Source of the DNA: Bacteroidota bacterium
GTDB lineage: Bacteria; Bacteroidota; Rhodothermia; Rhodothermales; UBA10348
Direction of reading: 5' to 3'
NCBI GenBank assembly: GCA_018623785.1
Contig: JAAZVD010000008.1
Span: 1 to 15,443 of the forward strand
DNA: 15,443 nucleotides
Shown here one piece after another: positions 838 to 15,371 of the stretch. Each line of letters starts with the position of its first letter. The stretch's first letter is position 1. The position numbers were made by a program, and so were the translations under genes. Under the pieces are notes generated by a model. That model was not told the DNA's origin and made no database searches. It saw only the letters and a list, made by a program, of their open reading frames with translations.

Positions 838-883
838 GGTGTGGGTGCATGGGTGGTTCATGGTACGTTCAGTATACAGCGCC

Positions 884-1801
884 TTATTCTTTGACGGTGG
901 TCATTTCCTCGAATACCGTGGCAATGTTGCCCGCAATACCGTCCGGGTTGCCTTGGAGCACATGACTCTGGAACCCTTCAAGTCCGTGCGCGCCTGTTTC
1001 GATGGCTGACATGCCGGCGTTGATTCCGGCCTCAGCCGCGTCCCGCAACGCGCCGAGGTAATCCCGCATCACCAGCAGATTTTCTCGTCGGCCCAGGACG
1101 CCGTTGGCCGGGTTGCCGTGACCGAAGATGAAAACGGTGTTGTCCGTGAATTGGTCGTGAGCCCGCTCCAAAACCGTCATCCAGTTGGCAGTATCCGCAC
1201 CGGCACCCAGATCGATGTAGGCGTGCCGGTAATTGAATACCAGATCGCCCATGTGGACCACGTCGGCTTTCTCGAAGTGAATGATGGCATCGCCCGCCGT
1301 GTGGGCCGGACCAAAGTGATAGAGGCGAACGGTTTCGTCCCCGATCTCTTGGTGCCACGACTCCGCAAATGTCGTGTTCGCGTACGTCTGCGCATCCAGC
1401 GTTCCGCGCTGCTCGGCCTGCATGCGCTGCAGCATGGGTACCTTGTCATGCGCCACGATGTGCTTGGCGTCAGCGCCAAGCACGCTGTTACCCCCCGTAT
1501 GATCGCCGTGGTGATGGGAGTTGATGAGCAGGTCTACAGTACGCCCCGAGCGTTTTTGCAGTCCGTCGCGGCATTCAGCGGCCGACTCCGGAAACTGGGA
1601 GTCCACGACAACCAAGGCATCGTCATTCATCAACCAGCCGATGGTGCCACCCCGGGATTCGAAGCGGCCCGCACCGCGACGGATGGGAGTAAACAGGCCT
1701 GCTCCTGGCCGTAGGTTAGAGGCGGGGAGCGGCAGGGCGCTCATGCCAAGGCTAACGCCTGCCAGGGTCGATGCGGTTCTCAGAAAGCGTCTTCGATGCA
1801 T
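884..1801 (-). CDS. Tat-exported MBL-fold metallo-hydrolase
   Basis: Predicted 305 aa zinc hydrolase of the metallo-beta-lactamase fold. The start at 1801 gives MHRRRFLRTASTLAG, a twin-arginine signal (RRRFL at residues 3-7), so the enzyme is probably exported folded with its metal. An in-frame ATG at 1840 adds 13 residues before the twin arginines and would leave almost no room for the divergent gene's control region. The metal motif HHHGDH is at 96-101 (His96, His98, Asp100, His101), with later ligands His167 (GPAHTAGD), Asp186 (HMGDLVFN) and His228 (FGHGNP). This complete set matches glyoxalase II / class B3-like enzymes; the substrate cannot be told from sequence. The lipoprotein gene follows on the same strand, suggesting a two-gene unit. 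Antibiotic lactamase activity is possible but not implied by the fold. Confidence 0.9.
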   Translation of the reverse strand: MHRRRFLRTASTLAGVSLGMSALPLPASNLRPGAGLFTPIRRGAGRFESRGGTIGWLMNDDALVVVDSQFPESAAECRDGLQKRSGRTVDLLINSHHHGDHTGGNSVLGADAKHIVAHDKVPMLQRMQAEQRGTLDAQTYANTTFAESWHQEIGDETVRLYHFGPAHTAGDAIIHFEKADVVHMGDLVFNYRHAYIDLGAGADTANWMTVLERAHDQFTDNTVFIFGHGNPANGVLGRRENLLVMRDYLGALRDAAEAGINAGMSAIETGAHGLEGFQSHVLQGNPDGIAGNIATVFEEMTTVKE

Positions 1802-1890
1802 GACGGTGTGTCGGGTTTTGACAGCGTGATCGGAGTACAAACATGATACCCGAGGAACCGCCGTCGGGTTCGGCGCTTAATGCATGGCCT
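1802..1890. promoter_or_regulatory. Divergent control region between metallo-hydrolase and serine hydrolase genes
   Basis: With the signal-peptide starts at 1801 (minus) and 1891 (plus), this 89-bp gap must hold both promoters. On the plus strand TTGACA at 1818-1823 is followed after 18 bases by CATGAT at 1842-1847, a fair sigma-70-like pair. On the minus strand CATGTTTG (1838-1845) resembles the TAnnTTTG element of Bacteroidota promoters but has no convincing upstream partner. The two candidates overlap. The existence of the region is well supported; the exact boxes are a guess. Confidence 0.4.
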
Positions 1891-3309
1891 ATGAGACGAT
1901 TGAAATTCATTCTTTCCGGTGCCCTATTCGGGGTGCTACTGTTGTCGGTAGCCCGGGTGGCCCCTGCGCAGGACCTGAGCCGTCTGATCGAGGAGGCCGA
2001 AATTACCGGTGCCGTACTCGCTGTCATTGAGGATGGCGAGGTCGTCCGCGTGGACGCGGCCGGCGTGCGCAGCACGCAGACCAATCCGCCGATTACGGAG
2101 GACACGGTGTTTGAGGCTGAATCCCTCAGCAAGCTTATCGTAGCCTGGATTGCCCTGCGGCTAATGGAGGAGGACGTGTTGGATCTGGACCAGCCGCTTT
2201 CGGAATTGGCTCCTTGGCCCGACGCGCAACACGATGTGCGCTATCAGCGGATTACGCCTCGCATGGTACTCTCCCATACGTCCGGATTCCCCAACTTTCG
2301 AGCGTCGGGCCAGCAACTGCCTATCCTCTACGAGCCCGGGACCTACTTTACGTATTCAGGAGAGGGATTCCTCTTCCTGCAACACGTCATGGAGGCTGTG
2401 ACGTATTCGAGCCTGGAGGAACTGGCCCGCAAATACGTTTTCGAACCTTTCGGGATGACGTCGTCCAGCTTCATCTGGCAGAGTGATTTCGGCTCCCGTA
2501 TCGCTGTAGGCCACACGGATATGGACGAGGCCCTCGACAAGTTTGTCCCCCAATCGGCCAACGCAGCGGTTGGTCTCCATACCACGGCCCGCGACTACGC
2601 CCGGTTCATGACGGGCGTTCTGGCTTCCGACGAACTGGGCCGTCGACTGAGGCGGGAGATGTCCCTGGCGCAGGTAGATGCGCTCGATGGCATCTTCTGG
2701 GGCCTTGGATTCGGCATCCAGCCCACCCTAGACGGCTCGGCCCTCTGGGAGTGGGGCGACAATGCGGGCTACAAGTCATTCGCCTACATCGAGCCCGATG
2801 CCTCGAAGGGGTTGGTCTATCTTTCAAACAGCGCCAACGGCATGCTCATCCTGCATGAGCTCTTTGAGGAAGTCATCAGCGGCCCACAGACGGCGGTGCG
2901 TTGGCTGAATTACCAGCAGTATGACGACCCGGTGTACCAGCTTGGACGGCGGCTGCATTACGAATTGCTTGCTGGAGGCATGGACGCCGTCCGAGCCGAT
3001 TATGATGTGGCAACGACCGAGCTGCCTGCGGAAGCTTTCGAGGAAGGTGCGCTCAATGCCCTCGGGTACCGGCTCTTGCGTCAAGGCATGGTTGAGGAGG
3101 CCGTGGATATTTTCCGCTTCAACGTGGAGCTCTACCCGGAGTCAGGCAACCCATACGACTCTCTCGGCGAAGCACTCATTGCAGCAGGGGACCTCGAGGG
3201 TGCATTGGAGAACTATGAGACGAGCGTGCGTCTGGACCCCGGTAATGACAACGGCGTGGCCATGATCAGTTATCTCGAAGCGCAGCTCGAAGCGGCCACA
3301 GGGCGGTAG
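1891..3309 (+). CDS. Secreted serine hydrolase (beta-lactamase/class C-like family) with C-terminal TPRs
   Basis: Predicted 472 aa exported serine hydrolase of the class C beta-lactamase/esterase/D-alanyl carboxypeptidase superfamily. I use the ATG at 1891 because it begins a clean signal (MRRLKFILSGALFGVLLLSV...APA, then Gln27); the frame is open back to an ATG at 1843, but that adds 16 non-signal residues. The nucleophile motif is SLSK at 78-81, followed by YSG at 155-157 (the YxN-equivalent Tyr) in a YSGEGF context. The third motif is non-standard: WGDNAGYKS around 288-296 stands where KTG or HxG normally sits. Residues 389-454 form about two TPR units (GMVEEAVDIF..., GDLEGALENYE...), so the protein may act in a complex or bind peptide. 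It diverges from the metallo-hydrolase gene and converges on the multicopper oxidase gene. Substrate unknown. Confidence 0.88.
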   Translation: MRRLKFILSGALFGVLLLSVARVAPAQDLSRLIEEAEITGAVLAVIEDGEVVRVDAAGVRSTQTNPPITEDTVFEAESLSKLIVAWIALRLMEEDVLDLDQPLSELAPWPDAQHDVRYQRITPRMVLSHTSGFPNFRASGQQLPILYEPGTYFTYSGEGFLFLQHVMEAVTYSSLEELARKYVFEPFGMTSSSFIWQSDFGSRIAVGHTDMDEALDKFVPQSANAAVGLHTTARDYARFMTGVLASDELGRRLRREMSLAQVDALDGIFWGLGFGIQPTLDGSALWEWGDNAGYKSFAYIEPDASKGLVYLSNSANGMLILHELFEEVISGPQTAVRWLNYQQYDDPVYQLGRRLHYELLAGGMDAVRADYDVATTELPAEAFEEGALNALGYRLLRQGMVEEAVDIFRFNVELYPESGNPYDSLGEALIAAGDLEGALENYETSVRLDPGNDNGVAMISYLEAQLEAATGR

Positions 3310-3365: not shown

Positions 3366-5099
3366 TTATCGTCCCACCTGAGGACCTGCGCCCCGTTCAT
3401 GCACTTCGAAGCCCAGCATCATGCCTGCGTGCAGGTGCTCGGCAATGTGACAGTGCGCCATCCATCTACCCGGATTGGAAACGTCGACCAGAATATCGAC
3501 GGTTGACCCGACCGGAATGATAGTTGTGTCTTTCCAACCCATGTTGCGGTTCTCTACGCCATCGATGTGCGTGACCACGAAACGCTGCCCGTGCACATGG
3601 AAGGGGTGGTTCATGGGGTGGAACGAGGAGGGGTCGTTGAAGATGCGGATCTTGACCACATCGCCAATTTCCCACTGCCAGTTGATATCCATGCTTTTCT
3701 TACCGGTATCCTCGTCGAGGAGTACCCAGCGGGCCTCCTCGCCCGTGGACAGCCAGTTCATCATGGGCATGCCTTCGTTCCACTCAATGGGCGGGAAGTA
3801 GAGCGTATCCACTTCCATCATGCGCATCGTCATGGGATGAAGATCCTTCGTCTCAATGGTCAGGCGCAGGTTGTGGTCGGGCGCCTTGTCGAAATAGCGG
3901 CGGAAGGTGTCGATGTCGGCAATCGTGTCCTCGTTCGTACGCGCTTCGGCAAAAGCGTCGGCGTGGTCCTCTGACGTGGCGCCGGTGGCAGTAATTGTAC
4001 CCAAATCGTGGGTTTCCGGCACGAAAATGCCCCGGAAGTGGTCGATGGCCTGGATGGAATTGGTGATGGTGTAGGTGCGGGCCTCATCGAAATACACATC
4101 CACGATGTAGCGCTCGGCCGGCGCAATGATGACACTCGATACGAACTGCTCGCGTTCCAGCTTGCTCACGTCGTCGGCAATGACTTTGATGCGGGCGCCA
4201 TCGAAGGTCACGTTGAAGGTGCGCGTATTGGCCACATTGGTCAGGTAGAAGCGCACAACGTCGCCGGCCTGGATATCCAGATTGTAGTCCGTGATACCGT
4301 TGACCAGCATGATATTGCCGAAGCGGCCCATCAGCGCGTGCGTCGGGGCCTCTTCGCCGTAGGGGAAGAGGCCGTTGGCATCGACCAGGATATCATCGAG
4401 GATGAGTGGTACTTCCCGGTTGACCGGGGCGTAGTAGCCCTCTTCCGTGGGGTCAACCAGCATGTTGCCGTAAAGGCCAAGATCCTGCTGCACGTCCTCG
4501 CGCATGTGCGGGTGATACCAGTACATGCCCGTGTCGGGGAATTTCAGCTCATACGTGAAGGACTCGCCCGTTTCGACGGGATCCTGAGTCAGTCCCGGGA
4601 TACCGTCGTAGGCGTTGTCCAGCCGTAGGCCGTGCCAGTGCACGGTTGTGGGCATGTCGATGTTGTTCGTGAACTCCACGACGACTTTGGACCCACGATC
4701 GGCCCGGATCAGGGGACCGGGATACATCCCGCCGTAGGCCATCATCACATACTCTTTACCGTTGATGGTTCGTCGCACCAGGGAGGCGTCCATGTGGAGG
4801 GTATCCCCATCGGCCATATCAATGATTTCAGAAGGCCTGGCCTCGGGATACATGGATACATCCATACCGAATCCTGGCAGGAAGGCGCCAACGTCCGGAA
4901 TATCGTCCATCATACCCGGCATCATGGGCATGGTCATGCCGTCCATGGGGGCCATGCGCCAGACCAGACTATCGCCCATGGGCATGGCATGATTGTGGTG
5001 CATGTGCATCGAGTGATCCATCTCCTGGGCACGGATCTGCGTGACCGGGAATAGAGAGGCGACCAATACGAGCAGGCCAGCGAATCGGTAGGAATACAT
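3366..5099 (-). CDS. Secreted multicopper oxidase with Met/His-rich N-terminus
   Basis: Predicted 577 aa exported laccase/CopA/CueO-type oxidase that would couple oxidation of a phenol or metal ion to reduction of O2 to water. The start at 5099 gives MYSYRFAGLLVLVASLFPVTQIRA with Gln26 after the cleavage site. The frame stays open to 5405, but that part is the neighbouring gene read out of frame. Copper motifs are complete: HWHG (154-157), HPH (196-198), HPMNHPFHVHG (494-504) and HCHIAEHLHAGM (549-560), with type 1 Cys550, His555 and axial Met560. Residues 27-64 are packed with Met and His (MDHSMHMHHNHAMPMG, then PMDGMTMPMMPGMM), a stretch resembling copper-binding segments of copper-resistance oxidases. 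It lies 37 bp behind the small exported protein gene, likely co-transcribed. Copper detoxification or cuprous oxidation is the best guess; laccase activity on phenols is the alternative. Confidence 0.93.
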   Translation of the reverse strand: MYSYRFAGLLVLVASLFPVTQIRAQEMDHSMHMHHNHAMPMGDSLVWRMAPMDGMTMPMMPGMMDDIPDVGAFLPGFGMDVSMYPEARPSEIIDMADGDTLHMDASLVRRTINGKEYVMMAYGGMYPGPLIRADRGSKVVVEFTNNIDMPTTVHWHGLRLDNAYDGIPGLTQDPVETGESFTYELKFPDTGMYWYHPHMREDVQQDLGLYGNMLVDPTEEGYYAPVNREVPLILDDILVDANGLFPYGEEAPTHALMGRFGNIMLVNGITDYNLDIQAGDVVRFYLTNVANTRTFNVTFDGARIKVIADDVSKLEREQFVSSVIIAPAERYIVDVYFDEARTYTITNSIQAIDHFRGIFVPETHDLGTITATGATSEDHADAFAEARTNEDTIADIDTFRRYFDKAPDHNLRLTIETKDLHPMTMRMMEVDTLYFPPIEWNEGMPMMNWLSTGEEARWVLLDEDTGKKSMDINWQWEIGDVVKIRIFNDPSSFHPMNHPFHVHGQRFVVTHIDGVENRNMGWKDTTIIPVGSTVDILVDVSNPGRWMAHCHIAEHLHAGMMLGFEVHERGAGPQVGR

Positions 5100-5136: not shown

Positions 5137-5700
5137 CTAGTAGCCGTAGACGGCGCACGGTTCGGACTCGAATGGGCCGTGACCGGCCATCGTATGCATG
5201 AGACCGCTGCGGGACATGCCGCGAGAGACAACAGGGCCTGTCCACATGGCTCCCGGCTCTTTTTCAGCCGGTTCCAGTGTGATGACGAGCAGGAATTTGT
5301 TGAAATCGGTTTGGCCCGAAACACGCAGGTTCTCATCGAGGATGCCGAGCGCCCGGATCTGATCCAGCTGCGGGGTCGTGATCCAGGCCACGAGCACCTT
5401 GTCATCGTCCAGGCGGACGTTGCTCATCGATACGTCAATATTGATATGAAACGAGCCTGACTCAGATACGGAAATGCCGAAGGGAGAGGCGACGTAGGTT
5501 ACTTCGCCTTTACCCTTGGCCAGACGCGCGCCCGGCACTTTGCGCGTGGTCACGAGCTCGATTTCGTAGTAGTCGGGCGAGGATAGCGTAGTGCAGGCAG
5601 GTGTAGCCTCCGAGGGCGAACTGTCCGCGTCCAAGGTAGGCGATGCCAGTACAGCAACAGCCAGCATCAGGAGCGATCCGAAGTAACGTAGGATGGGCAT
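5137..5700 (-). CDS. Small exported protein of unknown function, upstream partner of the multicopper oxidase
   Basis: This 187 aa protein starts MPILRYFGSLLMLAVAVLAS, an apparent Sec signal peptide. I do not recognise a named family. Cys36 and Cys182 bracket the mature chain and could form a disulfide after export. The core (about 85-160) has the order VLVAWITTP, ALGILDEN, NKFLLVITLEP, MWTGPVV, which recalls the C-terminal beta domain of RskA-type anti-sigma factors, but there is no transmembrane helix or zinc finger, so that is only a resemblance. Near the end, RSGLMHTMAGHGPF places His169, Met171 and His174 close together, a possible copper site given the downstream oxidase. Co-transcription with the oxidase (37 bp gap) suggests a shared role such as copper handling or redox partnering. 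Confidence 0.75.
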   Translation of the reverse strand: MPILRYFGSLLMLAVAVLASPTLDADSSPSEATPACTTLSSPDYYEIELVTTRKVPGARLAKGKGEVTYVASPFGISVSESGSFHINIDVSMSNVRLDDDKVLVAWITTPQLDQIRALGILDENLRVSGQTDFNKFLLVITLEPAEKEPGAMWTGPVVSRGMSRSGLMHTMAGHGPFESEPCAVYGY

Positions 5701-5780: not shown

Positions 5781-5816
5781 AAAAAAGGGCGGGGCGCCTG
5801 CCGGCGCCCCGCCCTT
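5781..5816 (-). terminator. Intrinsic terminator of the seven-gene propeller operon
   Basis: Read on the minus strand, arms GGGCGGGGCGCC (5803-5814) and GGCGCCCCGCCC (5787-5798) form a perfect 12-bp stem around a four-base loop. Two more A-T pairs extend it, and a run of six T follows (5781-5786). It begins about 21 bases after the stop of the last propeller gene. The plus-strand side lacks a T tract, so it works in one direction, separating the propeller operon from the oxidase pair. Confidence 0.92.
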
Positions 5817-5837
5817 GAAAATCGTTAGCTGTCGGTC

Positions 5838-7178
5838 TCAACGCGTTCCTTCCCGAGACTCCTCATCCCAGTGCTGCACGGACGATACGTTGGGCACGCC
5901 CCAATCCTCGCCATTCCACCCGTTGAAGCCTTCCATGCGGAAGGTCCAGAAGCCGGTTGTCATGTCGGAAATCACGATCAGGCCGTCTTCGTTACGCACA
6001 TCCACGCCGAAGGCTCCCTTTGCCACGTTGCCGGCCATGCCGCCGTTGTTGCGACTGCCCGTGAAGGTATCGAAGTAGGCTACCGTCCGCGGCTTCTTCG
6101 GATCCTCCATCGAGAACACTTGCAGCCCATCGTGATAGCCGCTTACGAAGACGTACGGCCAACGCACCTCATGATTATGCACCAGACCTTCCCAGTGCGG
6201 CGTCCATGCAGCGATGGGGCTGTTAATGTTGGACACCTCTCCATCGAGTCCAGGCTGCAGGTCGAAAATGCGTAGCGGGGCATATTTGTACTCCGTCTCG
6301 GCTACCGCATACCGACCATTCGGACCGGGCGTAAAGGTGTGTCCGCTCCGAACACCATTGATTCCCGTCAGGCTGACCAGCAATTCCGGGTTGTCGATAT
6401 CCGTGAAGTCATAAACGTAGTAGCCGCCCGTACCGCCGCCGTAGAAGCGATCCGTGCCGGTGTCGACGTGGTAACCGGCATAAAAGTCGTGGTAACCGCG
6501 GCGGCTTGACTCGGCCGGTGTGGGAATACGACCAACGAGCGCCTTTTCAACATCACCCTCGACTACCATTCCCAGATCATATACGTTGGCAAACGCATCA
6601 GAAACCGTGCTCAAGAGCAGCACCCGTCCCGATGAGTGCTTGTATACGAAGATGTTGTGGAACCCACCCGGCGTATCCGGCTCGTGGATGCGGGCCACTT
6701 CGCGTACGGTCGAAGGGTCGGGCAAATCAGTGACGTCGAGTACAACGGCGCCCAAATCGTGGTTTGGACCGCCAGCGCCGAATTGCAGGGATTGTACCAC
6801 ATAGTAGCGGTCTTTCCACTTGAAGTACTTTACGTCCATGCCGCCTGTACGCATGTGCAGGTCCTGGTTCTCAATGCGCCACCTGTAGATGACCTTTGGA
6901 TTGGACGGGTCGGAAAGGTCAATGATATCGGTCCCCTTTTCGCCCATTTCAGCGTAATGCATGCGGGCCACATACGCATATGGCCTGCTGACTTCCTGCT
7001 CCAGATCCATGTCTGCCACGCTCAGGCGGGGGCCGAGCGGAATGTGCCCGAGGACGTCAATGTTGTCGCTGCCCGGATTCGTGGGCGTCCAGGGGGTATC
7101 CTGGGCCTGGCCGTTCCGGGGCCCGAAAGCAAAGGCCATGATGAACAGGCCGGCAAGGATGAACGTGGTGCGTTTCAT
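5838..7178 (-). CDS. Secreted LVIVD-repeat beta-propeller protein, paralog 1 (last in operon)
   Basis: 446 aa exported propeller. The ATG at 7178 starts MKRTTFILAGLFIMAFAFGP...GQA with Gln26 next; the frame is open to 7250 but those 24 residues precede the signal. Mature protein: DNIDVLGHIPLG (39-50), then blades with LVIVD-like strands (TDIIDLSDPSNP 83-94, GGYYVYDFTDIDNP 251-264, GLQVFSMEDPKKP 351-363, GLIVISD 399-405). The five family-wide histidines are 174 (GGFHNIF), 181, 230 (GYHDFY), 280 (GHTFTP) and 336 (HNHEVRWP). The end is GFNGWNGEDWG (418-428) and a tail ending SREGTR, where the other four full-tail paralogs have SKEGTR. The loop 371-389 is rich in Gly and Asn. It is 83 bp from the gene upstream, the widest gap in the operon, and is followed by the terminator. 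Function unknown; ligand binding or metal-dependent catalysis are open. Confidence 0.87.
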   Translation of the reverse strand: MKRTTFILAGLFIMAFAFGPRNGQAQDTPWTPTNPGSDNIDVLGHIPLGPRLSVADMDLEQEVSRPYAYVARMHYAEMGEKGTDIIDLSDPSNPKVIYRWRIENQDLHMRTGGMDVKYFKWKDRYYVVQSLQFGAGGPNHDLGAVVLDVTDLPDPSTVREVARIHEPDTPGGFHNIFVYKHSSGRVLLLSTVSDAFANVYDLGMVVEGDVEKALVGRIPTPAESSRRGYHDFYAGYHVDTGTDRFYGGGTGGYYVYDFTDIDNPELLVSLTGINGVRSGHTFTPGPNGRYAVAETEYKYAPLRIFDLQPGLDGEVSNINSPIAAWTPHWEGLVHNHEVRWPYVFVSGYHDGLQVFSMEDPKKPRTVAYFDTFTGSRNNGGMAGNVAKGAFGVDVRNEDGLIVISDMTTGFWTFRMEGFNGWNGEDWGVPNVSSVQHWDEESREGTR

Positions 7179-7261
7179 GATCGAGTGAATGCTTGAGAGT
7201 GCGGGTTGAACGCCTTCCGAGAGAGGGTAGACGTCAACATGATGATTCAAGGGCAGGATTG

Positions 7262-8554
7262 TCAGCGAGTGCCCTCCTTGGACTCCTCATCCCATTCCTG
7301 AACGGAGGAGATGTTGGGAACGCCCCAATCCTCGCCGTTCCAGCCGTTAAAGCCGTCCATGCGAAAGGACCAGAAGCCGGTGGAGCCGTCCGAGATGACG
7401 ATCAGGCCGTCCGCGTTGCGGACATCCACACCGAAGGCGCCGTCCATGACACCGCCCGTGGCATTGATGATGGTGTCGTAGTACCCGATGGTCTGCGGGT
7501 TCTCGGGGTCCTCGAGCGAGAAGACCTGAAGGCCATCGAGATAGCCGCTTACGAACACATACGGCCAGCGCACTTCGTGGTTGTGGACCAGATTTTCCCA
7601 GTTGGCCGTCCACGCCGAAATGGGATAGTTGATGTTCTGGCGCTCACCGTCCAGGGCTGGCTGCAGGTCGAAGATGCGCAGCGGCGCATACTTGTACTCT
7701 GTTTCGGCAATGACGTAGCGGCCAGTGGGGCCCGGGGTAAACGTATGGCCGTAGCTGACGCCCGGGATGCCGGTCAGGGTGATGCGCAGTTCGGGGCTCT
7801 CGATATCGGAGATGTCATACACATAGTAGCCGCCGAAGCCGCCGCCGTAAAAGCGATCTTCGCCCGTGTCCGGGTGGAATGACGCGTAGAAATCATGGTA
7901 GCCGCGGCGCCCGCCTGTGTCGCCGGGAATGGGAATATTGCCGGCGAGCGCATCTTCGATATCTCCCGAAACGACCTTGGACAAATCATACACGTTGGCG
8001 CCCGGGCCGCGCACCGTAGTGATCAGGTACGGCGTGCCGTTCGAGTGCTTGTAGATAAAGATGTTGTGGAAGCCGCCCGGCATCTCGGATTCTCGGATGC
8101 GGGCTACTTCTACTACAGCGTCCGGGTCCGGCAGGCCCGTAACATCAAAGACAACAGCCCCCAGATCATAGTCAGGGCCTTGGCTGAATTGCGTGGAAAG
8201 GACCACATAGTAGCGTCCAGCGTGCTTGAACTGCTTGATATCGAGCGCGCCCACGCCGGCGTTCAAGTCATCGTTGCTGTTGATCCAGCGTTTGAGGAGG
8301 CGGGGGCGAGCAGGATCAGAGATATCGATGATATCCATACCGCGCGCATAATTGTCTCGGTAGCGAGCCTTGGCCACGTAGGCGTAGGGACGCTCCAGCT
8401 CCTGCTCGAGCTCGATATCGGCAACGGACTCGGGCGCACCCAGCGGCAGGTGACCCTGCACATGGATGTTGTCGCTACCCGGATTGGTAGGCGTTTGGGC
8501 CGAGGCACCGGCCACCCATCCGAGCATAAGCGCAACGCAGATCAGCCTGCTCAT
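7262..8554 (-). CDS. Secreted LVIVD-repeat beta-propeller protein, paralog 2
   Basis: 430 aa, the shortest paralog. The start ATG at 8554 shares bases with the TGA of the upstream paralog (ATGA overlap) and begins MSRLICVALMLGWVAGASA, with Gln20 after cleavage; the open frame to 8617 is only the neighbour's coding sequence in another frame. Blade strands include MDIIDISDPARP (73-84), GGYYVYDISDIESP (241-254), GLQVFSLEDPENP (341-353) and GLIVISD (383-389). Histidines 163, 170, 220, 270 and 326 are the family set. The ending (GFNGWNGEDWG 401-411, then SKEGTR) is intact. It shares PTNPGSDNI and the APLRIFDLQPxLDGE segment with paralog 1, suggesting these two are related by duplication, and NIN.PISAWTANWENL with paralog 5. 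The loop after YYDT (361-373) is the shortest in the family. Translation is probably coupled to paralog 3. Confidence 0.87.
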   Translation of the reverse strand: MSRLICVALMLGWVAGASAQTPTNPGSDNIHVQGHLPLGAPESVADIELEQELERPYAYVAKARYRDNYARGMDIIDISDPARPRLLKRWINSNDDLNAGVGALDIKQFKHAGRYYVVLSTQFSQGPDYDLGAVVFDVTGLPDPDAVVEVARIRESEMPGGFHNIFIYKHSNGTPYLITTVRGPGANVYDLSKVVSGDIEDALAGNIPIPGDTGGRRGYHDFYASFHPDTGEDRFYGGGFGGYYVYDISDIESPELRITLTGIPGVSYGHTFTPGPTGRYVIAETEYKYAPLRIFDLQPALDGERQNINYPISAWTANWENLVHNHEVRWPYVFVSGYLDGLQVFSLEDPENPQTIGYYDTIINATGGVMDGAFGVDVRNADGLIVISDGSTGFWSFRMDGFNGWNGEDWGVPNISSVQEWDEESKEGTR

Positions 8555-8568
8555 CGGGTACCCTCTTT
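8551..8568 (-). promoter_or_regulatory. Overlapping stop/start (ATGA) with embedded ribosome site for paralog 2
   Basis: The stop of paralog 3 (TGA, 8551-8553) and the start of paralog 2 (ATG, 8552-8554) share bases. The minus strand reads AAAGAGGG at 8561-8568, ending six bases before the ATG, a reasonable ribosome site in a region where few starts have one. These bases also encode the conserved Lys-Glu-Gly of the C-terminal tail, so one stretch serves both purposes. It decides the start at 8554 over the upstream in-frame alternative at 8617. Confidence 0.65.
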
Positions 8569-9900
8569 GGATTCCTCTTCCCAGTGCTGCACGGAAGAGA
8601 TGTTGGGCATGCCCCAATCTTCGCCGTTCCAGCCGTTGAAGCCTTCCATACGGAAGGTCCAGAAACCGGTAGACATGTCCGAAATGACGATCAGGCCATC
8701 CTCATTGCGCACATCCACACCGAAGGCGCCGTTATACATGCCGAACTCGCCTTCCATGAGTTTTGGCCCCGTGTACGTGTCGTAATAGGCCACCGTCGTC
8801 GGTGTCGAGGGATCCATCATCGAAAACACTTGCAGCCCATCAAGATACCCGGAGACGAATACGTAGGGCCAACGCACTTCATGGTTGTGGACCAGGTGCT
8901 CCCAGTTGGCGGTCCAGGCGGAGATGGGGCGTCGAATATTTTCAACCTCTCCGTCCATACCTGGCTTCAGGTCGAACATGCGCAAGGGTGCGTACTGGTA
9001 CTCCGTTTCCGTAACGGCATAGCGCCCATCCGGGCTGGGAGTGAAAGTGTGGCCCCATTGAACGCCCTGAATGCCCGTCATCTCGAACTCCATGGTCGGT
9101 TTGGCCACGTCAGTGACATTCCAGACGTAGTATCCCCCGGTACCTCCACCGTAGAACAGGTCTGCCTCCTTATCAGGATTCCAGGCAACATAGAGATCAT
9201 GATAGAACAAAGGAGACGGCAGTATGTCTTCTGCGCCAGCCGGTCCTCCGACCGCTTCGGGTGGTACGGGCACAGCGGCTACCAAGGCGTTTTCGACATC
9301 TCCAGAAACTACCTTTCCCATGTCATAGACACTGGCTTGTCCTGCGTTGACGGTCGTAAAGAGGTAGACATTGCCGTCGGAGTGCTGGTAAAGGAAGATG
9401 TTATGGAAGCCACCCGGCCAGCGGGATTCCGTAATGCGGGCCACCTCCACGACACTGTCCGCATCAGGCAGTCCGGTTACATCGAAAACGACAGCGCCGA
9501 GGTCATAGTTGGGACCTGGTCCAAACTGAAAGGACTGCACGACATACGTGCGGCCCTGCCACTTGAAATACTTGACATCCATGCCTCCAAGGCCGGTATG
9601 CAGGTATTCGTTTTCGATTCGCCATTCCATCAGAACCTGCGGCGAAGCGGGATCTGAGAGGTCAATGACGTCCATGCCTTTGGCCACGTATTCTCCCAGA
9701 TGCCCACGAGCCACGTACGCATACGGGCGGTCCATGTCCTGCTCCAGTTCCAAGTCCATGACACTGAGGACGCCTCCCAAGGGGATGTGACCCTCTACGG
9801 ATATGTTATCCGTGCCCCGCTTGTCCACCGACTGTGCGGTAGCCACAGTGGGCAACAGGAGCAGGGTCAACACGAAAAGGAAAGATGCCTGATGTTTCAT
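8551..9900 (-). CDS. Secreted LVIVD-repeat beta-propeller protein, paralog 3
   Basis: 449 aa exported propeller; start at 9900 gives MKHQASFLFVLTLLLLPTVATA and Gln23. It carries DNISVEGHIPLG (31-42), MDVIDLSDPASP (76-87), GGYYVWNVTDVAKP (255-268), GLQVFSMMDPSTP (355-367) and GLIVISD (402-408). Family histidines are 166, 173, 234, 284 and 340. It ends with GFNGWNGEDWG (420-430) and SKEGTR. It is closest to paralog 4: both have WNPDKEADLFYGGG where others have a His, ENIRRPISAWTANW, and GMPNISSVQ. It has a private insertion, roughly residues 213-232 (PPEAVGGPAGAEDILPSPLF), on a loop before the YHDLY strand. Spacing to paralog 4 is 55 bp with no clear ribosome site. Confidence 0.88.
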   Translation of the reverse strand: MKHQASFLFVLTLLLLPTVATAQSVDKRGTDNISVEGHIPLGGVLSVMDLELEQDMDRPYAYVARGHLGEYVAKGMDVIDLSDPASPQVLMEWRIENEYLHTGLGGMDVKYFKWQGRTYVVQSFQFGPGPNYDLGAVVFDVTGLPDADSVVEVARITESRWPGGFHNIFLYQHSDGNVYLFTTVNAGQASVYDMGKVVSGDVENALVAAVPVPPEAVGGPAGAEDILPSPLFYHDLYVAWNPDKEADLFYGGGTGGYYVWNVTDVAKPTMEFEMTGIQGVQWGHTFTPSPDGRYAVTETEYQYAPLRMFDLKPGMDGEVENIRRPISAWTANWEHLVHNHEVRWPYVFVSGYLDGLQVFSMMDPSTPTTVAYYDTYTGPKLMEGEFGMYNGAFGVDVRNEDGLIVISDMSTGFWTFRMEGFNGWNGEDWGMPNISSVQHWEEESKEGTR

Positions 9901-9955
9901 GGTAGTGCAGGTTGATACGGAAAGTGACGAGGCCTTCGAGCGGGATGGCTTGGGG

Positions 9956-11278
9956 TCAGCGTGTGCCTTCTTTCGACTCCTCGTCCCACTGCTGCACGGA
10001 AGAGATGTTGGGCATGCCCCAATCCTCGCCGTTCCAACCGTTGAAGCCTTCCATACGGAAGGTCCAGAAGCCGGTGGACATGTCCGAAATGACGATCAGC
10101 CCGTCTTCGTTGCGTACATCCACGCCGAAAGCGCCGTTACCGACCGCGCCGCCCATGGCACCCACGTCACGCGGGCCTGTGTACGTATCGTAGTAACCCA
10201 CCGTCACAGGATGCTCCGGGTCCATCATGGAGAAGATCTGCAGGCCGTCGTGGTAGCCGCTCACGAACACATAGGGCCAGCGGACTTCGTGGTTGTGGAC
10301 CAGGTTCTTCCAGTTGGCCGTCCAGGCCGAGATGGGGCGACGGATGTTTTCCGTTTCGCCATCCATGGCCGGCTTCATGTCGAACATGCGCAGCGGTGCG
10401 TACTGGTATTCCGTTTCCGTGATGGCGTAGCGTCCATCGGGGCTCGGTGTGAACGTGTGGCCCCAGTCAACGCCCGTGATACCGGTCATCGAGAACTCAA
10501 GCTCAGGGTTCTCGGGGTCTGAGATGTTGTAGACATAGTAGCCGCCTTGGCCACCGCCATAGAACAGATCGGCTTCCTTGTCTGGATTCCAGGCGGCGTA
10601 GAGGTCGTGGTAGAACCCGTATTCATCAACCGCAATCGGCACCGTGCCTACGTAAGCATCCTCGACATCGCCACTGACGGCTTTGCCAAGATCGTAGATG
10701 TTGGCGCCCGGCCCGTTGATCGTGGTCAGGAGCAGTACACGCCCGTCCGAGTGTTTGTAAATGAAGATGTTATGGAAGCCGCCTGGCAGGTCTGGCTCAT
10801 GGATGCGGGCCACTTCAAACACCTTGGAGGCGTCCGGCAGGCCGGTTACATCGAGGATATAGGCGCCCAGATCCTGATTCGGTCCCTGACCGAACTGCGT
10901 GGACTGAACGACATAGTAGCGCCCGTCGTACTTGAAATATTTGATGTCCATGCCGCCTAGCCCCGTGTGCAAGTCCGGGTTTTCCATGCGCCAGCGCAGG
11001 AGCACCTTGGGGTTGGACGGGTCGGCAATGTCGATGATGTCCGTTCCCCGCTCGGAGTTTGGTCCAACCGTGCCTCGAGCTACGTAGGCATAGGGACGGG
11101 ACATTTCCTGCTCAACTTCCATGTCCATCGTATTCAGGATACCACCAAGAGGAATATGTCCTTCTACCGAAATGTTGTCCGAACCGGGCTCGAGGGTTGT
11201 CCAGGGCGTCTCGTCCTGGGCGGAGGCCGGCAGGATCAGCAGCAAGGCCAAGGTCAACAGGGGGATCAGTCGTTTCAT
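9956..11278 (-). CDS. Secreted LVIVD-repeat beta-propeller protein, paralog 4
   Basis: 440 aa exported propeller. The ATG at 11278 begins MKRLIPLLTLALLLILPASA with Gln21; an open frame to 11413 overlaps the 3' end of paralog 5 in another frame and is rejected as the start. Landmarks: DNISVEGHIPLG (34-45), TDIIDIADPSNP (79-90), GGYYVYNISDPENP (245-258), GLQIFSMMDPEHP (345-357), GLIVISD (392-398), GFNGWNGEDWG (411-421), tail SKEGTR. Family histidines are 169, 176, 224, 274 and 330. It is the sister of paralog 3, with at least one identical 35-base run near the 3' ends, but lacks that paralog's insertion. The loop after YYDT (365-382) reads as Gly/Ala-rich. Most of the difference from paralog 3 sits in loops and in the N-terminal third. 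Confidence 0.88.
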   Translation of the reverse strand: MKRLIPLLTLALLLILPASAQDETPWTTLEPGSDNISVEGHIPLGGILNTMDMEVEQEMSRPYAYVARGTVGPNSERGTDIIDIADPSNPKVLLRWRMENPDLHTGLGGMDIKYFKYDGRYYVVQSTQFGQGPNQDLGAYILDVTGLPDASKVFEVARIHEPDLPGGFHNIFIYKHSDGRVLLLTTINGPGANIYDLGKAVSGDVEDAYVGTVPIAVDEYGFYHDLYAAWNPDKEADLFYGGGQGGYYVYNISDPENPELEFSMTGITGVDWGHTFTPSPDGRYAITETEYQYAPLRMFDMKPAMDGETENIRRPISAWTANWKNLVHNHEVRWPYVFVSGYHDGLQIFSMMDPEHPVTVGYYDTYTGPRDVGAMGGAVGNGAFGVDVRNEDGLIVISDMSTGFWTFRMEGFNGWNGEDWGMPNISSVQQWDEESKEGTR

Positions 11279-11331
11279 GAGGTAAGCTGAAAGAGTGGTT
11301 GAGTGCTCAAGTGAGAGGAATTCAGTGGGAA

Positions 11332-12651
11332 TCAGCGCGTGCCTTCCTTGGATTCTTCGTCCCATTTCTGGACGGAGGAAATATCGGGCTGTCCCCAGTC
11401 TTCGCCATTCCAACCGTTGAAGCCTTCCATACGGAAGCTCCAGAAGCCGGTGGTCATATCCGAAATGACGATCAGGCCGTCCTCGTTGCGGACATCGACG
11501 CCGAATGCACCGTTGATGACGGGCGAAAAGCCCTCGGTGTTCGTGCCGAGGTAGGTGTCATAGTAGCCCACCGTCTGTGGATTTTTCGGGTCCTCCAGGG
11601 AAAAGACCTGCAGGCCATCCAGGTAGGCGCTCACGAAGACGTAGGGCCAGCGGACTTCGTGGTTGTGGCTCAGGTTTTCCCAGTTAGCCGTCCAAGCCGA
11701 AATCGGCTGGTTGATGTTCAGGCGCTCGCCGTCGAGAGCCGGCTTGAGGTCGAAGATCCGCAGCGGAGCATACTGATATTCCGCCTCGGCCACGACATAG
11801 CGTCCGTCCGGGGACGGGGTGAACGTGTGGCCCCATGTCACGCCCGACACGTTTTGCAGCGTGACCCGGATTTCCGGATTGTGGATGTCTGTGATGTTCC
11901 ACACGTAGTACCCGCCGCTGCCGCCTCCGTAGAAGCGGTCCTCGCCCGAATCAGGGTGCCAAGCAGCGTAGTGGTCGTGATAGGAGCGGCGTTCCGTTTC
12001 GGGCTCGTACGTCGGGATCGTGGCCACGTAGGAGTTCTCGATATCGCCGGCCACGGCCTTATGCAGATCGAAGGCCTGGACCATGTCACCCCGCACGGTG
12101 GCCAGCAGGTAGATATTACCGTCCGAATGCTTGTAGATAAAGATGTTGTGCATGCCGCCCGGATTGTCCGGTAGCACCCATCGACCTACCTCTGTCAGCT
12201 TCTCAGGCAGATCGGTCACGTCGAAAAGCACGGCACCGAGCTCGTAGTGCGGGCCGCCACTGAATTCAAAGGACTGCACGACATAATAGCGGCCACCGGT
12301 CTTGAAATATTTGACATCCATGCCGCCACGGTTGGGAAGGAGATCCTGATACTCCAGGCGGTAGCGGTGGATGACCTCCGGGTTGGAGGGGTCCGAGAGA
12401 TCAATGACATCCATGCCTTTCGGACCGCCATCCACGATGGAGGCGCGGCTTACATAGGCATAGGGACGGTCCAGCTCTTGCTCGAGCTCGATGTCCGTGA
12501 CGCTCGAGTGCTTGCCAAGGGGCACATGTCCGAGCACTTCCATGTTGTCGGATCCGGGTTTAAGGGCCGTAGCCTGCCCCAGTGCAAGCGGGGCGAGCAG
12601 ACTGGATGCCGCCACTAGGGCGAACAATCGGAGAACCGGGTTGAATGTCAT
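11332..12651 (-). CDS. Secreted LVIVD-repeat beta-propeller protein, paralog 5
   Basis: 439 aa exported propeller; start at 12651 gives MTFNPVLRLFALVAASSLLAPLALG with Gln26 after a Gly at the cleavage site. Landmarks: DNMEVLGHVPLG (35-46), MDVIDLSDPSNP (80-91), GGYYVWNITDIHNP (246-259), GLQVFSLEDPKNP (345-357), GLIVISD (391-397), GFNGWNGEDWG (410-420), tail SKEGTR. Family histidines are 168, 175, 225, 275 and 331; the first sits in GGMHNIF, where most have GGFHNIF. It has SHNHE where others have VHNHE, and EAEYQY where others have ETEY. The segment 140-165 is shorter and more acidic than in paralogs 1-4 and resembles paralog 6 (DLPxxxTEVGR). Gaps of 42 bp before and 53 bp after place it inside the operon. 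Confidence 0.88.
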   Translation of the reverse strand: MTFNPVLRLFALVAASSLLAPLALGQATALKPGSDNMEVLGHVPLGKHSSVTDIELEQELDRPYAYVSRASIVDGGPKGMDVIDLSDPSNPEVIHRYRLEYQDLLPNRGGMDVKYFKTGGRYYVVQSFEFSGGPHYELGAVLFDVTDLPEKLTEVGRWVLPDNPGGMHNIFIYKHSDGNIYLLATVRGDMVQAFDLHKAVAGDIENSYVATIPTYEPETERRSYHDHYAAWHPDSGEDRFYGGGSGGYYVWNITDIHNPEIRVTLQNVSGVTWGHTFTPSPDGRYVVAEAEYQYAPLRIFDLKPALDGERLNINQPISAWTANWENLSHNHEVRWPYVFVSAYLDGLQVFSLEDPKNPQTVGYYDTYLGTNTEGFSPVINGAFGVDVRNEDGLIVISDMTTGFWSFRMEGFNGWNGEDWGQPDISSVQKWDEESKEGTR

Positions 12652-12693
12652 GTCAGATATGCGGGTGATAGGTGGGTGATATCGGTGGGAGGC

Positions 12694-14070
12694 TCACTCC
12701 TCGAGCATGCCTTCCCAATTCTGTGCGCTCGAAACGTTGGGCATGCCCCAATCGTTGCCGTTCCACCGGTGGAAGCCTTCCATCTTCAAGGCCCAGAAGC
12801 CGGTGGTCATGTCGCTGACCACGATCAGGCCGTCAGCGTTGCGGACATCGACGCCCCAGGCGCCATCATAGACCTGCCACGTGTACGGGCTGCCCATGCG
12901 CTCCATAGCCGCGCCGCGGTCGTTGTGGATGCCGTTGAACGTATCGTAGTAGGCTACGGTGTAGGGATTCTCGGGATCGACCATGTTGAAGACGCCGAGG
13001 CCGGTCTGGTAACCGCTCACAAAGACATAGGGCCAGCGGACTTCGTGGTTGTGGGCGATGCTTTTCCAGTCGGCATGCCAAGCCCCCACGGCGTGGTCGA
13101 TGTTCTTGTCGGGAAGCGTCCCATCGAGCGCCGGCCGCAGGTCAAAGATGCGCAGCGGCTGGTACTGAAACTCGGTTTCTCCGATCGCAAAGTTTCCATC
13201 GGGTGTAGGGGTAAACGTGTGGCCCCAGGCAACGCCCGGGACGCCGACCATGGTTGCCAGAAGGTCAGGGTTGTCCAGATCCGTCACGTTGTAAACGTAG
13301 TAGCCACTGCCACCGCCACCGTAGAAGCGGTCCTGACCGCTCTCGGGATGATATTGCACCATGAAGTCATGATAACCCCGCGACCACATACCCTCGGTCT
13401 CATGCACGGGAATCCGGGCTACGAGCTCCCGGTTGTCATCGCGCAGAAGGGGGTCCATCTCGGTCTGATCGCCATCTACAAATCGGGCCATATCGAAGAC
13501 CTTGGCATACCCCGCCGATGTGGCAAACAGCAGGGGCTTGCCCGAGCTGTGGTTGTACATGAAAATGTTATGGAAGCCTCCGGGTGCGTCCGATTGCCGC
13601 ATTCGGCCCACTTCGGTCATGGAGCCGGGTAGATCGGTCACATCGAACACGATGGCACCGACATCCGAGTTGGGACCGGACTGCCTGAGCTGCATGGACT
13701 GCACGTAGTAGTAGCGCCCGTTGTGCTTGAAATACCGGCCGTCCATGGCGCCGCCCGCATGCAGGTCTTCGTTCTCGATCCGCCAGCGGTGAATGACCTT
13801 GGCATGGTCCGGGTCGCTAAGGTCTATGACATCGAACCCAATGGCACCGTTGCGACGGGCTACGTAGGCATAGGGCCGTGACATCTCCTGCTCGATCTCG
13901 ATATCGGATATCGTACCCGCTGCACCGAGCGGAATATGGGACATCACCGTGATGTTGGCCGAACCGCGCTGTCCGGGTGGGGGTGGATGGGGTGGCTGTT
14001 CAATACCCATCTGGGCCGTAGCAGGTACTGCGGTAAGCAGGGCCGCAACAAGGAGGTACAGTGGTTTCAT
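12694..14070 (-). CDS. Secreted LVIVD-repeat beta-propeller protein, paralog 6 (diverged tail)
   Basis: 458 aa, the longest paralog. The ATG at 14070 begins MKPLYLLVAALLTAVPATA with Gln20, and GAGGTGG lies five bases before it; an in-frame GTG at 14079 would add three residues and lies within that ribosome site. A Pro-rich linker (PPHPPPPG, 26-33) follows the signal. Landmarks: NITVMSHIPLG (39-49), FDVIDLSDPDHA (79-90), SGYYVYNVTDLDNP (255-268), GLGVFNMVDPENP (357-369), GLIVVSD (414-420). Family histidines are 167, 174, 233, 284 and 342. The end departs from paralogs 1-5: GFHRWNGNDWG (432-442), then SSAQNWEGMLEE, with no EGTR. Two insertions stand out: about 199-230 (DGDQTEMDPLLRDDNRE...) and the long loop 378-403. 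It begins two bases after the stop of paralog 7, so translation is probably coupled. Confidence 0.88.
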   Translation of the reverse strand: MKPLYLLVAALLTAVPATAQMGIEQPPHPPPPGQRGSANITVMSHIPLGAAGTISDIEIEQEMSRPYAYVARRNGAIGFDVIDLSDPDHAKVIHRWRIENEDLHAGGAMDGRYFKHNGRYYYVQSMQLRQSGPNSDVGAIVFDVTDLPGSMTEVGRMRQSDAPGGFHNIFMYNHSSGKPLLFATSAGYAKVFDMARFVDGDQTEMDPLLRDDNRELVARIPVHETEGMWSRGYHDFMVQYHPESGQDRFYGGGGSGYYVYNVTDLDNPDLLATMVGVPGVAWGHTFTPTPDGNFAIGETEFQYQPLRIFDLRPALDGTLPDKNIDHAVGAWHADWKSIAHNHEVRWPYVFVSGYQTGLGVFNMVDPENPYTVAYYDTFNGIHNDRGAAMERMGSPYTWQVYDGAWGVDVRNADGLIVVSDMTTGFWALKMEGFHRWNGNDWGMPNVSSAQNWEGMLEE

Positions 14071-14072
14071 GA

Positions 14073-15371
14073 CTACCACCTCGTTGATCCTGTGGGACCG
14101 TTGTCCCAGTCCTGGACGGTGCTGACGTTGGCAAAGCCCCAGCCGCGGCCATCCCAGCCTTCAAATCCTTCCATGCGGATGAGCCACAAGCCCGTATTGA
14201 CGTCTGTGACGGCAATCAAGCCGTCATGATTCCTGACGTCAACATCCCAAGCACCGTTTCGGTGCGTACGCTCATTGGAGAGCGATGCTCTTGGCCCGTC
14301 CCAGGTATCGTAGTAGCCGACCGTGTAGGGTTCAAACGGGTTCATCATATTGAACACCTGCAGCCCGTCGTCCATGGCCGCCGTGAATACAAAAGGCCAG
14401 CGCAGTTCATGGTTTTCAGCCAGATTGCGCCAGTCGGCGGTCCAAGCGCCGGCAGCCACGCGGATGCGAGGCACCATACCCTCGAAAGCGGGACGCAGGT
14501 CAAAAATGCGCATGGGGGCCGTGCGATAGCCTGCAGCCGTCACCAGGTGCGTGCCATCCGGGGTGGCTGACACCGCATGGCCGATCTGTACGGCTGCTGA
14601 ACTGACTTCCGTAATGAGAGACGGATTGGCAGGAGATGAGATATCAAATACGTAGTAGCCTCCCGCACCTGCTGCATAGAGCCGGTCCGTTTCGGAGTCT
14701 GCATGCCACTGTGCGGTCATGGCGTGGTAGCCGTAGTCTACGTTGACCACCGTTTCCGGTAGGGCGTAGGACGCTGTTGGATCCGTGACTCCCTCGAGCA
14801 GCTGCTGGATGTCATAGACATCGATGGGGCCGCCACCCGTGGCAAACAGATAGCTGCGCCCGTTGGAGTGCCGGTAGGCAAATACATGGTGGTATCCCGC
14901 TGGACGTAAAATATCGGCTGCAGGGTCAAACTGGCCTTCATCGGGATCCGTGACCTCCCGGATGGAGAGTCCCTCCGAGTGCGTTGCAGCCAGGTAGGAG
15001 CGGGAGCCGAGTCGGAACAGCGTCAGATCTCCGATTTCCCGGGTTTGGAGACGCCATAATCCCACTTCGATCGGGCGCTCCGGATGGTTGATGGTGATAG
15101 CCACGACCTCGGAGCCATCACCATTATTTCGGGCCACAAACAGGAAGGGGCGACCCTTCTCCTGTTCCATAACGAGATGTCCGGTTCCGCGTCCGAGGGC
15201 CTCGAAACCGGCAGAGGGGGACTCGGTCGATTGCATGCCTCCGAGCGGGAGATGGCCCACTAATACCAAATTACGACTGCCCCGGGAGCCGTCCTGACGG
15301 GCCTCAGCCGGCACGACGCAATACAGCAGGAGGGCGACCACGCCAAGCGCCAGGGTCGGGTGAAAGCGCAT
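14073..15371 (-). CDS. Secreted LVIVD-like beta-propeller protein, paralog 7 (first in operon, most diverged)
   Basis: 432 aa exported propeller. The ATG at 15371 begins MRFHPTLALGVVALLLYCVVPAEA; the frame is open to a GTG at 15440, but that extension precedes the signal. It is recognisably the same family: NLVLVGHLPLG (34-44), EQEKGRPFLFVAR (69-81), GGYYVFDISSPANP (237-250), APMRIFDLRP (285-294), GLQVFNMMNPFEP (336-348), GLIAVTD (384-390), EGFEGWDGRGWG (401-412). The five family histidines remain (161, 168, 216, 265, 321), but the His two residues before the last, present in all others, is Glu319. The first blade is poorly conserved (VVAITINHPERP in place of MDVIDLSDP), and the end is STVQDWDNGPTGSTRW. 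It is the only paralog without Gln after the predicted cleavage site. It may be the oldest member or one with a different role. Confidence 0.85.
   Translation of the reverse strand: MRFHPTLALGVVALLLYCVVPAEARQDGSRGSRNLVLVGHLPLGGMQSTESPSAGFEALGRGTGHLVMEQEKGRPFLFVARNNGDGSEVVAITINHPERPIEVGLWRLQTREIGDLTLFRLGSRSYLAATHSEGLSIREVTDPDEGQFDPAADILRPAGYHHVFAYRHSNGRSYLFATGGGPIDVYDIQQLLEGVTDPTASYALPETVVNVDYGYHAMTAQWHADSETDRLYAAGAGGYYVFDISSPANPSLITEVSSAAVQIGHAVSATPDGTHLVTAAGYRTAPMRIFDLRPAFEGMVPRIRVAAGAWTADWRNLAENHELRWPFVFTAAMDDGLQVFNMMNPFEPYTVGYYDTWDGPRASLSNERTHRNGAWDVDVRNHDGLIAVTDVNTGLWLIRMEGFEGWDGRGWGFANVSTVQDWDNGPTGSTRW
14076..14082 (-). promoter_or_regulatory. Shine-Dalgarno-like site fixing the start of paralog 6
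   Basis: The minus strand reads GAGGTGG five bases before the ATG at 14068-14070. Most starts in this window lack such a site, so it is a useful marker. It lies in the last codons of paralog 7 (whose TAG is 14073-14075), suggesting that ribosomes finishing paralog 7 restart on paralog 6. It argues for the ATG over the GTG at 14079, which falls within the site itself. Confidence 0.6.

Follow-up and report, generated by a model that had tools for sequence, protein, structure and literature searches.

What purpose could seven related and apparently exported beta-propellers serve when they are encoded one behind the other? This question is raised by contig JAAZVD010000008.1 of a Rhodothermales bacterium (Bacteroidota, assembly GCA_018623785.1; C279 in this study), the whole of which, 15,443 nucleotides (nt), is the window analyzed here. 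The genome is incomplete, with 1.87 Mb on 327 contigs and a completeness of 62.6%. Open reading frame (ORF) analysis identified seven unbroken paralogs of 430-458 amino acids (aa) on the minus strand at positions 5838-15371, every one starting with ATG, in agreement with an earlier interpretation made from the DNA letters alone (hereafter the sequence-only reading). Transcription of the array runs from g7 to g1, with spacings of -4 to 83 nt between the propeller genes. The leaders of all seven proteins were judged by eye to be Sec-like, and the identity of g2-g7 to g1 ranged from 38 to 66%. The explanation that fits best, to which roughly an even chance is given, is that the array encodes a panel of propeller enzymes that would be extracytoplasmic and metal-dependent, share one core, have different pockets and substrates, and work with a multicopper oxidase (MCO) module encoded downstream.

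Array order, copy number, and selection

Relatives were collected by scanning one genome per species with an alignment of the seven proteins, and the best 80 of 264 stretches yielded 79 loci (handles beginning with L; genomes carry a G). Arrays of homologs, which the sequence-only reading had proposed to seek in other gene neighborhoods, were found among them. Profile searches of open frames, partial ones included, counted at least two propeller copies in 31 and at least five in 15 of the 79 loci, many of which are cut by contig ends. The longest array has eight members, and the two-contig genome G003 carries eight in a row. A single copy was present in the stretch examined of all 41 loci labelled Gemmatimonadota, Longimicrobiales, Gammaproteobacteria, Acidobacteria, or BD2-11. 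Within the window's own family, at least five copies occurred in 12 of 16 genomes and at least three in all 16 (completeness at least 90%), counted per genome and not always on one contig.

A quick tree search covered 143 rows taken, after removal of five partial ones, from the window and 39 of the 79 loci. It was evaluated by the Shimodaira-Hasegawa-like approximate likelihood ratio test (SH-aLRT) only and gave long-branch warnings for position-1 genes. Orthologs clustered by array position across genera. The g6 gene fell within a clade of 25 position-2 genes, g7 was joined by position-1 genes from nine further arrays, and g1 by the final propeller genes of ten further loci (SH-aLRT 100, 98, and 99, respectively). 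The g5 gene grouped with position-3 genes, and g2, g3, and g4 formed separate clades. In some other arrays (e.g., L049, L053, and L077), the last gene was placed elsewhere in the core clade, inside which single genes from Gemmatimonadota, Acidobacteriota, and Pseudomonadota records also nested. Gene order is kept along the arrays and membership varies: L042 and L043 have no g3, L048 and L113 have neither g2 nor g3, and L043 carries an additional g4-like copy (L043_6of7).

The nearest relative with a name is L041, a Rhodothermales genome in which g1 is 98% identical. Compared with L041, all seven window genes had ratios of nonsynonymous to synonymous substitution rates (dN/dS) of 0.020-0.057, which is purifying selection, and synonymous divergence (dS) between the paralogs was at least 1.18 in all 21 pairs. 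Selection for several distinct copies, as the sequence-only reading had supposed, is borne out by the ratio of each gene together with the positional orthology across genera. The lowest dS to an L041 ortholog was that of g3 (0.36 vs 0.57-1.5 for the other six), and this gene may have been recently transferred or converted, given the low value and its absence from L042 and L043.

A shared center and a variable face

The structure model of g1 is a beta-propeller (predicted local distance difference test (pLDDT) 76.7, predicted template modeling score 0.81), in which the first strand begins near D117, H176, H232, H282, and H336 in blades 2 to 6, respectively. H338 follows H336 on the same strand, and blade 1 contains D58. 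In g1 numbering, D58, D117, H176, H232, and H282 are present in every core row (96 of 96) and every position-2 row (25 of 25), and H336 and H338 in 95 of the 96 core rows (the exception being L054_8of8) and in all 25 position-2 rows. Further near-invariant core residues are D233, E296, E298, and E339. All ring residues are present in six of the seven window proteins, g1-g6, and their Asp/His center is likely to bind metal.

In g7, D117, H176, H232, H282, and H338 are retained, with His at 58 and Glu at 336. The first array member is regarded as altered or degenerate, because position-1 genes diverge at the center residues. Those of three- and four-gene arrays (L051, L057, L067, L071, L072, L078, and L099) have lost most of the center His, and several of them sit on long branches; this suggests a structural or pseudo-enzyme role for these first-position propellers.

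The places at which the paralogs differ were located in five core groups (g1-g5, 48 rows) by comparing identity within orthologs with identity between paralogs. By propeller topology, the loops on the ring face are the D-A and B-C loops, and their identity was 0.83 within orthologs and 0.47 between paralogs. Loops of the opposite face reached 0.78 and 0.66, respectively, and the difference in the strands was 0.16. When the labels were shifted circularly, a contrast between the faces as large as the one observed arose in 0 of 368 shifts (1 of 375 in a first version). The outcome was again 0 of 368 when strand limits were displaced by one residue, and likewise when g6 was included. Among single paralog pairs, the four with valid numbers (g1 with g2, g3, g4, or g5) showed the contrast as well, with 0-1 of 368 shifts, and the remaining six of the ten gave no ring-face value (empty column). 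Each core copy has its own conserved rim around the common center, and this pattern is the trace expected of different ligands or protein partners.

A cassette with a multicopper oxidase

The sequence-only reading had seen nothing but propellers in this transcription unit. Between 5781 and 15371 this is correct; a secreted 187-aa protein and the MCO follow at 5700-3366 on the same strand. The neighborhood survey of relatives led to the rejection of an isolated array unit and placed the propellers in a cassette, in which one or more propellers are followed by a secreted immunoglobulin-like (Ig-like) protein of ~190 aa and then the MCO. The array is the expanded first part of this cassette.

Both partners lie downstream on the same strand in 58 of the 64 loci having at least 3.5 kb of room. 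The small protein is found in 59 and the MCO in 61 of these loci, neither of them in L059 and L076, and the count of 58 is conservative, as L078, L094, and L101 carry the small protein within a longer frame. With starts set by a simple hydrophobicity rule, the small gene begins at most 30 nt from the last propeller in 39 of 66 loci and at most 200 nt from it in 56 of 66. Because the gaps are short in most loci, a common transcript of propeller and small gene is likely as a rule. Of 68 loci scanned, 8 had a hairpin in this gap that satisfied the rule: those of the window, L041, L045, and L113 have a T-rich tail, and those of L043, L047, L111, and L115 poorer tails.

Co-occurrence was counted in 79 genomes of the order, all except the window's own at least 90% complete, at thresholds of E<=1e-90 for the propeller family and E<=1e-15 for the small protein. 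The propeller occurred in 32 and the small protein in 31 of the genomes, all 31 of which also had the propeller, and 47 had neither. G069 was the sole genome with the propeller but without the small protein.

Fusions were accepted in nine minus-strand frames and in L120, L121, and L122. The nine frames, from loci that seem closely related, have the small-protein domain fused to the N-terminus of the MCO. A second, weaker match of the domain was located inside a frame of 472-781 aa in 12 genomes, and the three of these that were inspected (L120, L121, and L122) all proved to be fusions with an MCO. The two domains probably act as one module, because they are fused in other loci. The fused form (~700 aa) exists apart from the propeller cassette at L120:840-2921 (-), L121, L122, and L062:5802-8051 (-); in L120, the gene beside it looks like uvrB by eye. 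Apparent propeller fusions in L070, L073, and L092 were rejected, the sequence preceding the propeller being by eye implausible as protein and of the kind seen in GC-rich open frames. The first ~200 residues of the 753-aa frame of L062 likewise look like a GC-rich open frame.

Three Cu-oxidase domains were assigned to the MCO of the window by Pfam, scored on a longer ORF. The copper-ligand stretches HWHG, HPH, HPxHxHG, and HCHIAEH...M, the individual His of which we take to be type 1, 2, or 3 ligands, are conserved across 65 MCO rows. In the 187-aa protein, Met, His, and Cys of the C-terminal tail are invariant in the alignment of relatives. Its model (m12cc803acaea) had a pLDDT of 80.5, with the tail under 50, and the listed fold matches, which leave room for further families, were mostly Ig-like sandwiches. 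The RskA_C gathering score of 29.4 exceeds the 19.5 bits of the window's protein, and 10 of 45 members match that family at E<=1.

The position of g1 next to these partners bears on the origin of the array. Compared with seven single-copy genes of other phyla, g1 is the closest of the seven propellers (mean identity 0.70 vs 0.40-0.66 for the others). Because the partner-adjacent copy is the one closest to single genes, a single gene beside the MCO module was probably the starting point of the array.

Proposed function and alternatives

A panel with different targets, be they those of binders or of parallel enzymes, fits best because the center is kept in g1-g6 and the loops differ. Two of the three options offered by the sequence-only reading are thereby retained, and the third, a hetero-oligomer of fixed ratio, fits less well. 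In the enzyme panel favored here, the products would be exported seven-bladed propeller metalloproteins, most likely enzymes, with the same Asp/His center in g1-g6 where the inner strands of neighboring blades begin. This center could hold one or two metal ions, and the loop set around it would give each of g1-g6 its own substrate; g7, with its altered center, may do something different. The panel would have expanded by tandem duplication of a single ancestral gene adjoining the MCO module. The ancestral propeller would work outside the inner membrane with a two-part oxidase of Ig-like protein (possibly with a copper site) and MCO, to which products or electrons may be handed over. The contribution of the MCO could be product oxidation, recycling of an electron carrier, or metal oxidation. 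A specific metal center and a specific specificity face are thus predicted. A further extension, in which an ordered panel of up to eight metallo-propellers would feed one Ig-domain MCO as an expandable extracytoplasmic oxidation system with array length setting the substrate range, is put forward tentatively and is itself somewhat unlikely.

An enzymatic role is consistent with the likeness to the phosphotriesterase or haloalkylphosphorus hydrolase of Sphingobium sp. TCM1 (5hrm, 5ioj). The 5hrm entry was the best PDB sequence match of both the propeller family profile (E 8.8e-5) and the choice-of-anchor B profile (E 4.8e-5), and it ranked second in the Foldseek search with the g1 model (E 1.8e-11). 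In 5hrm, His at two blade starts (NIHM and GGFHS) align with ring motifs of one or the other profile. A title in the reference list of PMC11656708 describes the Sphingobium phosphotriesterase as a seven-bladed propeller with a binuclear metal center.

Several observations weigh against the enzyme panel. H336 occurs in none of the 22 position-1 genes, and H176, H232, H282, and H338 occur together in only five of them (window, L041, L042, L043, and L045), so that the first panel member is frequently without the center. D58 is not paired with the Asp that choice-of-anchor B proteins have at that place. The g1 model is moderate (7 sequences), and the strand limits were taken from it. The 5hrm match is remote: in sequence it is a sum of short pieces with ~15% identity, in structure it has a template modeling score of 0.40 and a root mean square deviation of 11.5, and a yeast pre-ribosome propeller ranks higher. 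Most of the best 50 structures by Z were WD40-type propellers, of which many are scaffolds that bind proteins, with room for families beyond those listed. Divergence of the loops on one face would also follow from different protein partners. In the window's lineage, a terminator-like hairpin lies between the array and the MCO, and the co-occurrence counts are not independent, given the relatedness of the 79 genomes.

A binding role is possible for the propellers because the closest folds are mostly WD40-type and many of them scaffolds. Under this alternative, which is considered unlikely, the array would be a panel of extracytoplasmic receptor or scavenging propellers, with a structural or ligand-bridging metal and loops that bind different ligands without catalysis. 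It accounts for the same loop and center data, and also for the maintenance of position-1 proteins although 17 of 22 are without one or more of H176, H232, H282, and H338. However, the near-total invariance of His, Asp, and Glu in the core rows is more typical of a reaction center than of a scaffold, and the one PDB protein that the two profiles have in common below E 1e-3 is a hydrolase.

Copper handling appears less probable still. In that case, the MCO would act as a CueO-like cuprous oxidase and the 190-aa protein would shuttle copper, which the propellers, having multiplied to raise capacity, would bind or store in the periplasm. The Met/His-rich N-terminus of the MCO and the invariant Met, His, and Cys of the small protein are the features such a system would draw on, but capacity alone leaves the position-specific loops kept across genera unexplained. 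A Pfam scan of 20 selected neighbor proteins named no copper transporter, chaperone, or regulator, and the sandwich matches of the small protein are near common-fold level.

A hetero-oligomer of all propellers in fixed ratio is very improbable. Conserved gene order and tight spacing would suit it, but it fits less well because the copy number varies between 1 and 8 and some close relatives are without particular members but retain the rest (L042 and L043 without g3, L048 and L113 without g2 and g3). A recent neutral tandem amplification or dosage effect without functional difference, to which the tandem arrangement and lineage-specific extra copies such as L043_6of7 might point, is almost certainly wrong and was rejected on the high paralog dS and low dN/dS, with orthologs common to several genera and differences focused on one face.

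If the enzyme panel is correct, it would be a clear example from nature of the tandem diversification of a metalloenzyme scaffold around a fixed center. The cassette suggests an undescribed set of extracellular enzymes with different targets in a little-studied bacterial group.

Array boundaries and neighboring genes

The features of the window are listed in Table 1. The hairpin on the 3' side of g1 (5816-5785) has a GC-rich 14-bp stem, by far the longest in the window, and a T tail; in the same scan, terminator-like sites of the window were no more frequent than in shuffled sequence. The 5' end of the array unit is outside the view, because only 72 nt of contig lie upstream of g7. The seven propellers are probably the whole array, because a g7-type gene is the first propeller in L041, L042, and L043. 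In these three loci, a co-directional gene of another kind lies ~60-100 nt upstream (799-1713 (+) in L041) and may share the propeller promoter; the L041 copy had no Pfam match. An eighth copy was not found in the available part of the window's genome, in which three further matches were weak and partial, one of them (C292) being a choice-of-anchor B protein.

Table 1. Features of the propeller cassette in the window, in order of transcription
Feature	Position	Strand	Basis
g7, divergent position-1 propeller, first in array, 432 aa	14073..15371	-	ORF; tree; center altered
g6, position-2 propeller, 458 aa	12694..14070	-	ORF; tree; every ring residue kept
g5, core propeller, position 3, 439 aa	11332..12651	-	ORF; tree; every ring residue kept
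g4, core propeller, 440 aa	9956..11278	-	ORF; tree; every ring residue kept
g3, core propeller, 449 aa	8551..9900	-	ORF; tree; every ring residue kept
g2, core propeller, 430 aa, 4-nt overlap with g3	7262..8554	-	ORF; tree; ring residues kept
g1, last propeller, 446 aa	5838..7178	-	ORF; tree; identity to single-copy genes; ring residues kept
Intrinsic-terminator-like hairpin with T tail, between array and partner genes	5785..5816	-	Terminator scan; same place in L041, L045, and L113
Secreted Ig-like protein, 187 aa, partner gene	5137..5700	-	67 relatives; invariants; structure model; domain fused to MCO elsewhere
MCO, 577 aa, Met/His-rich N-terminus, partner gene	3366..5099	-	Pfam Cu-oxidase domains; laccase/CueO-like; motifs

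Beyond the MCO, the window encodes a protein with a metallo-beta-lactamase fold at 884-1840 (-) and a serine hydrolase with a beta-lactamase fold and TPR repeats at 1843-3309 (+), and genes similar to these two adjoin the cassette in close relatives. A PhoD-like phosphatase lies directly upstream of the single propeller of L062 (8217-9749, +), and similar frames of related loci cluster with it; it was not used as evidence because it recurs only in loci that seem closely related.

Comparison with known families

The sequence-only reading had named LVIVD, choice-of-anchor B, and SBP56 as families to compare. LVIVD membership was not upheld: all seven propellers match PF08309 weakly, with 11.4-18.2 bits and thus below the gathering score of 20.2. 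SBP56 (methanethiol oxidase) fared no better, being absent from the Pfam matches listed at E<=10 for the seven propellers, a range in which the HMMER filters drop most matches above ~0.1.

Relatedness to choice-of-anchor B (TIGR04312) was supported by profile comparison over the full length (hhalign probability 99.3, E 3.8e-20, 341 columns) and by the Asp/His set, while the four scores shown (48.4, 45.2, 34.1, and 52.8 bits) stayed below the curated cut-off of 100 bits. At E<=1e-3, 45 of the 47 members of propeller set A3 match TIGR04312, with a best E of 3.3e-17. D105, H156, H214, H268, and H323, invariant among 17 choice-of-anchor B members (alignment A4), pair with D117, H176, H232, H282, and H336 of the propellers. 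This Asp and the four His are present in g1-g6, and g7 has Glu for the fourth His. Choice-of-anchor B is also multicopy per genome in most of these bacteria, with at least one protein (E<=1e-60) in 59 of 60 genomes and up to 11 per genome. In G036, a choice-of-anchor B gene (L124:7164-8375, -) lies directly upstream of the propeller cassette.

A literature search by family name found no assigned function for choice-of-anchor B propellers. In agreement with the sequence-only reading, which knew of no system built this way, no published description of such propeller arrays was found in the literature searched; LVIVD papers were judged by titles and the starts of abstracts, and few subscription papers were covered.

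Compared with choice-of-anchor B, the array propellers form a family of their own, with HNHEVRWP and GHTFTP motifs and linkage to the MCO. Through linkage, co-occurrence, and the fusion of the partner domains, the cassette connects a family related to choice-of-anchor B with an MCO. This MCO resembles CueO and bacterial laccases in its Cu-oxidase domains and conserved copper-ligand motifs, with a score of 159 bits against the CueO equivalog cut-off of 525 (NF008205). Unlike CueO, it is linked to propellers and to an Ig-like domain, which in a paralog is fused to the oxidase.

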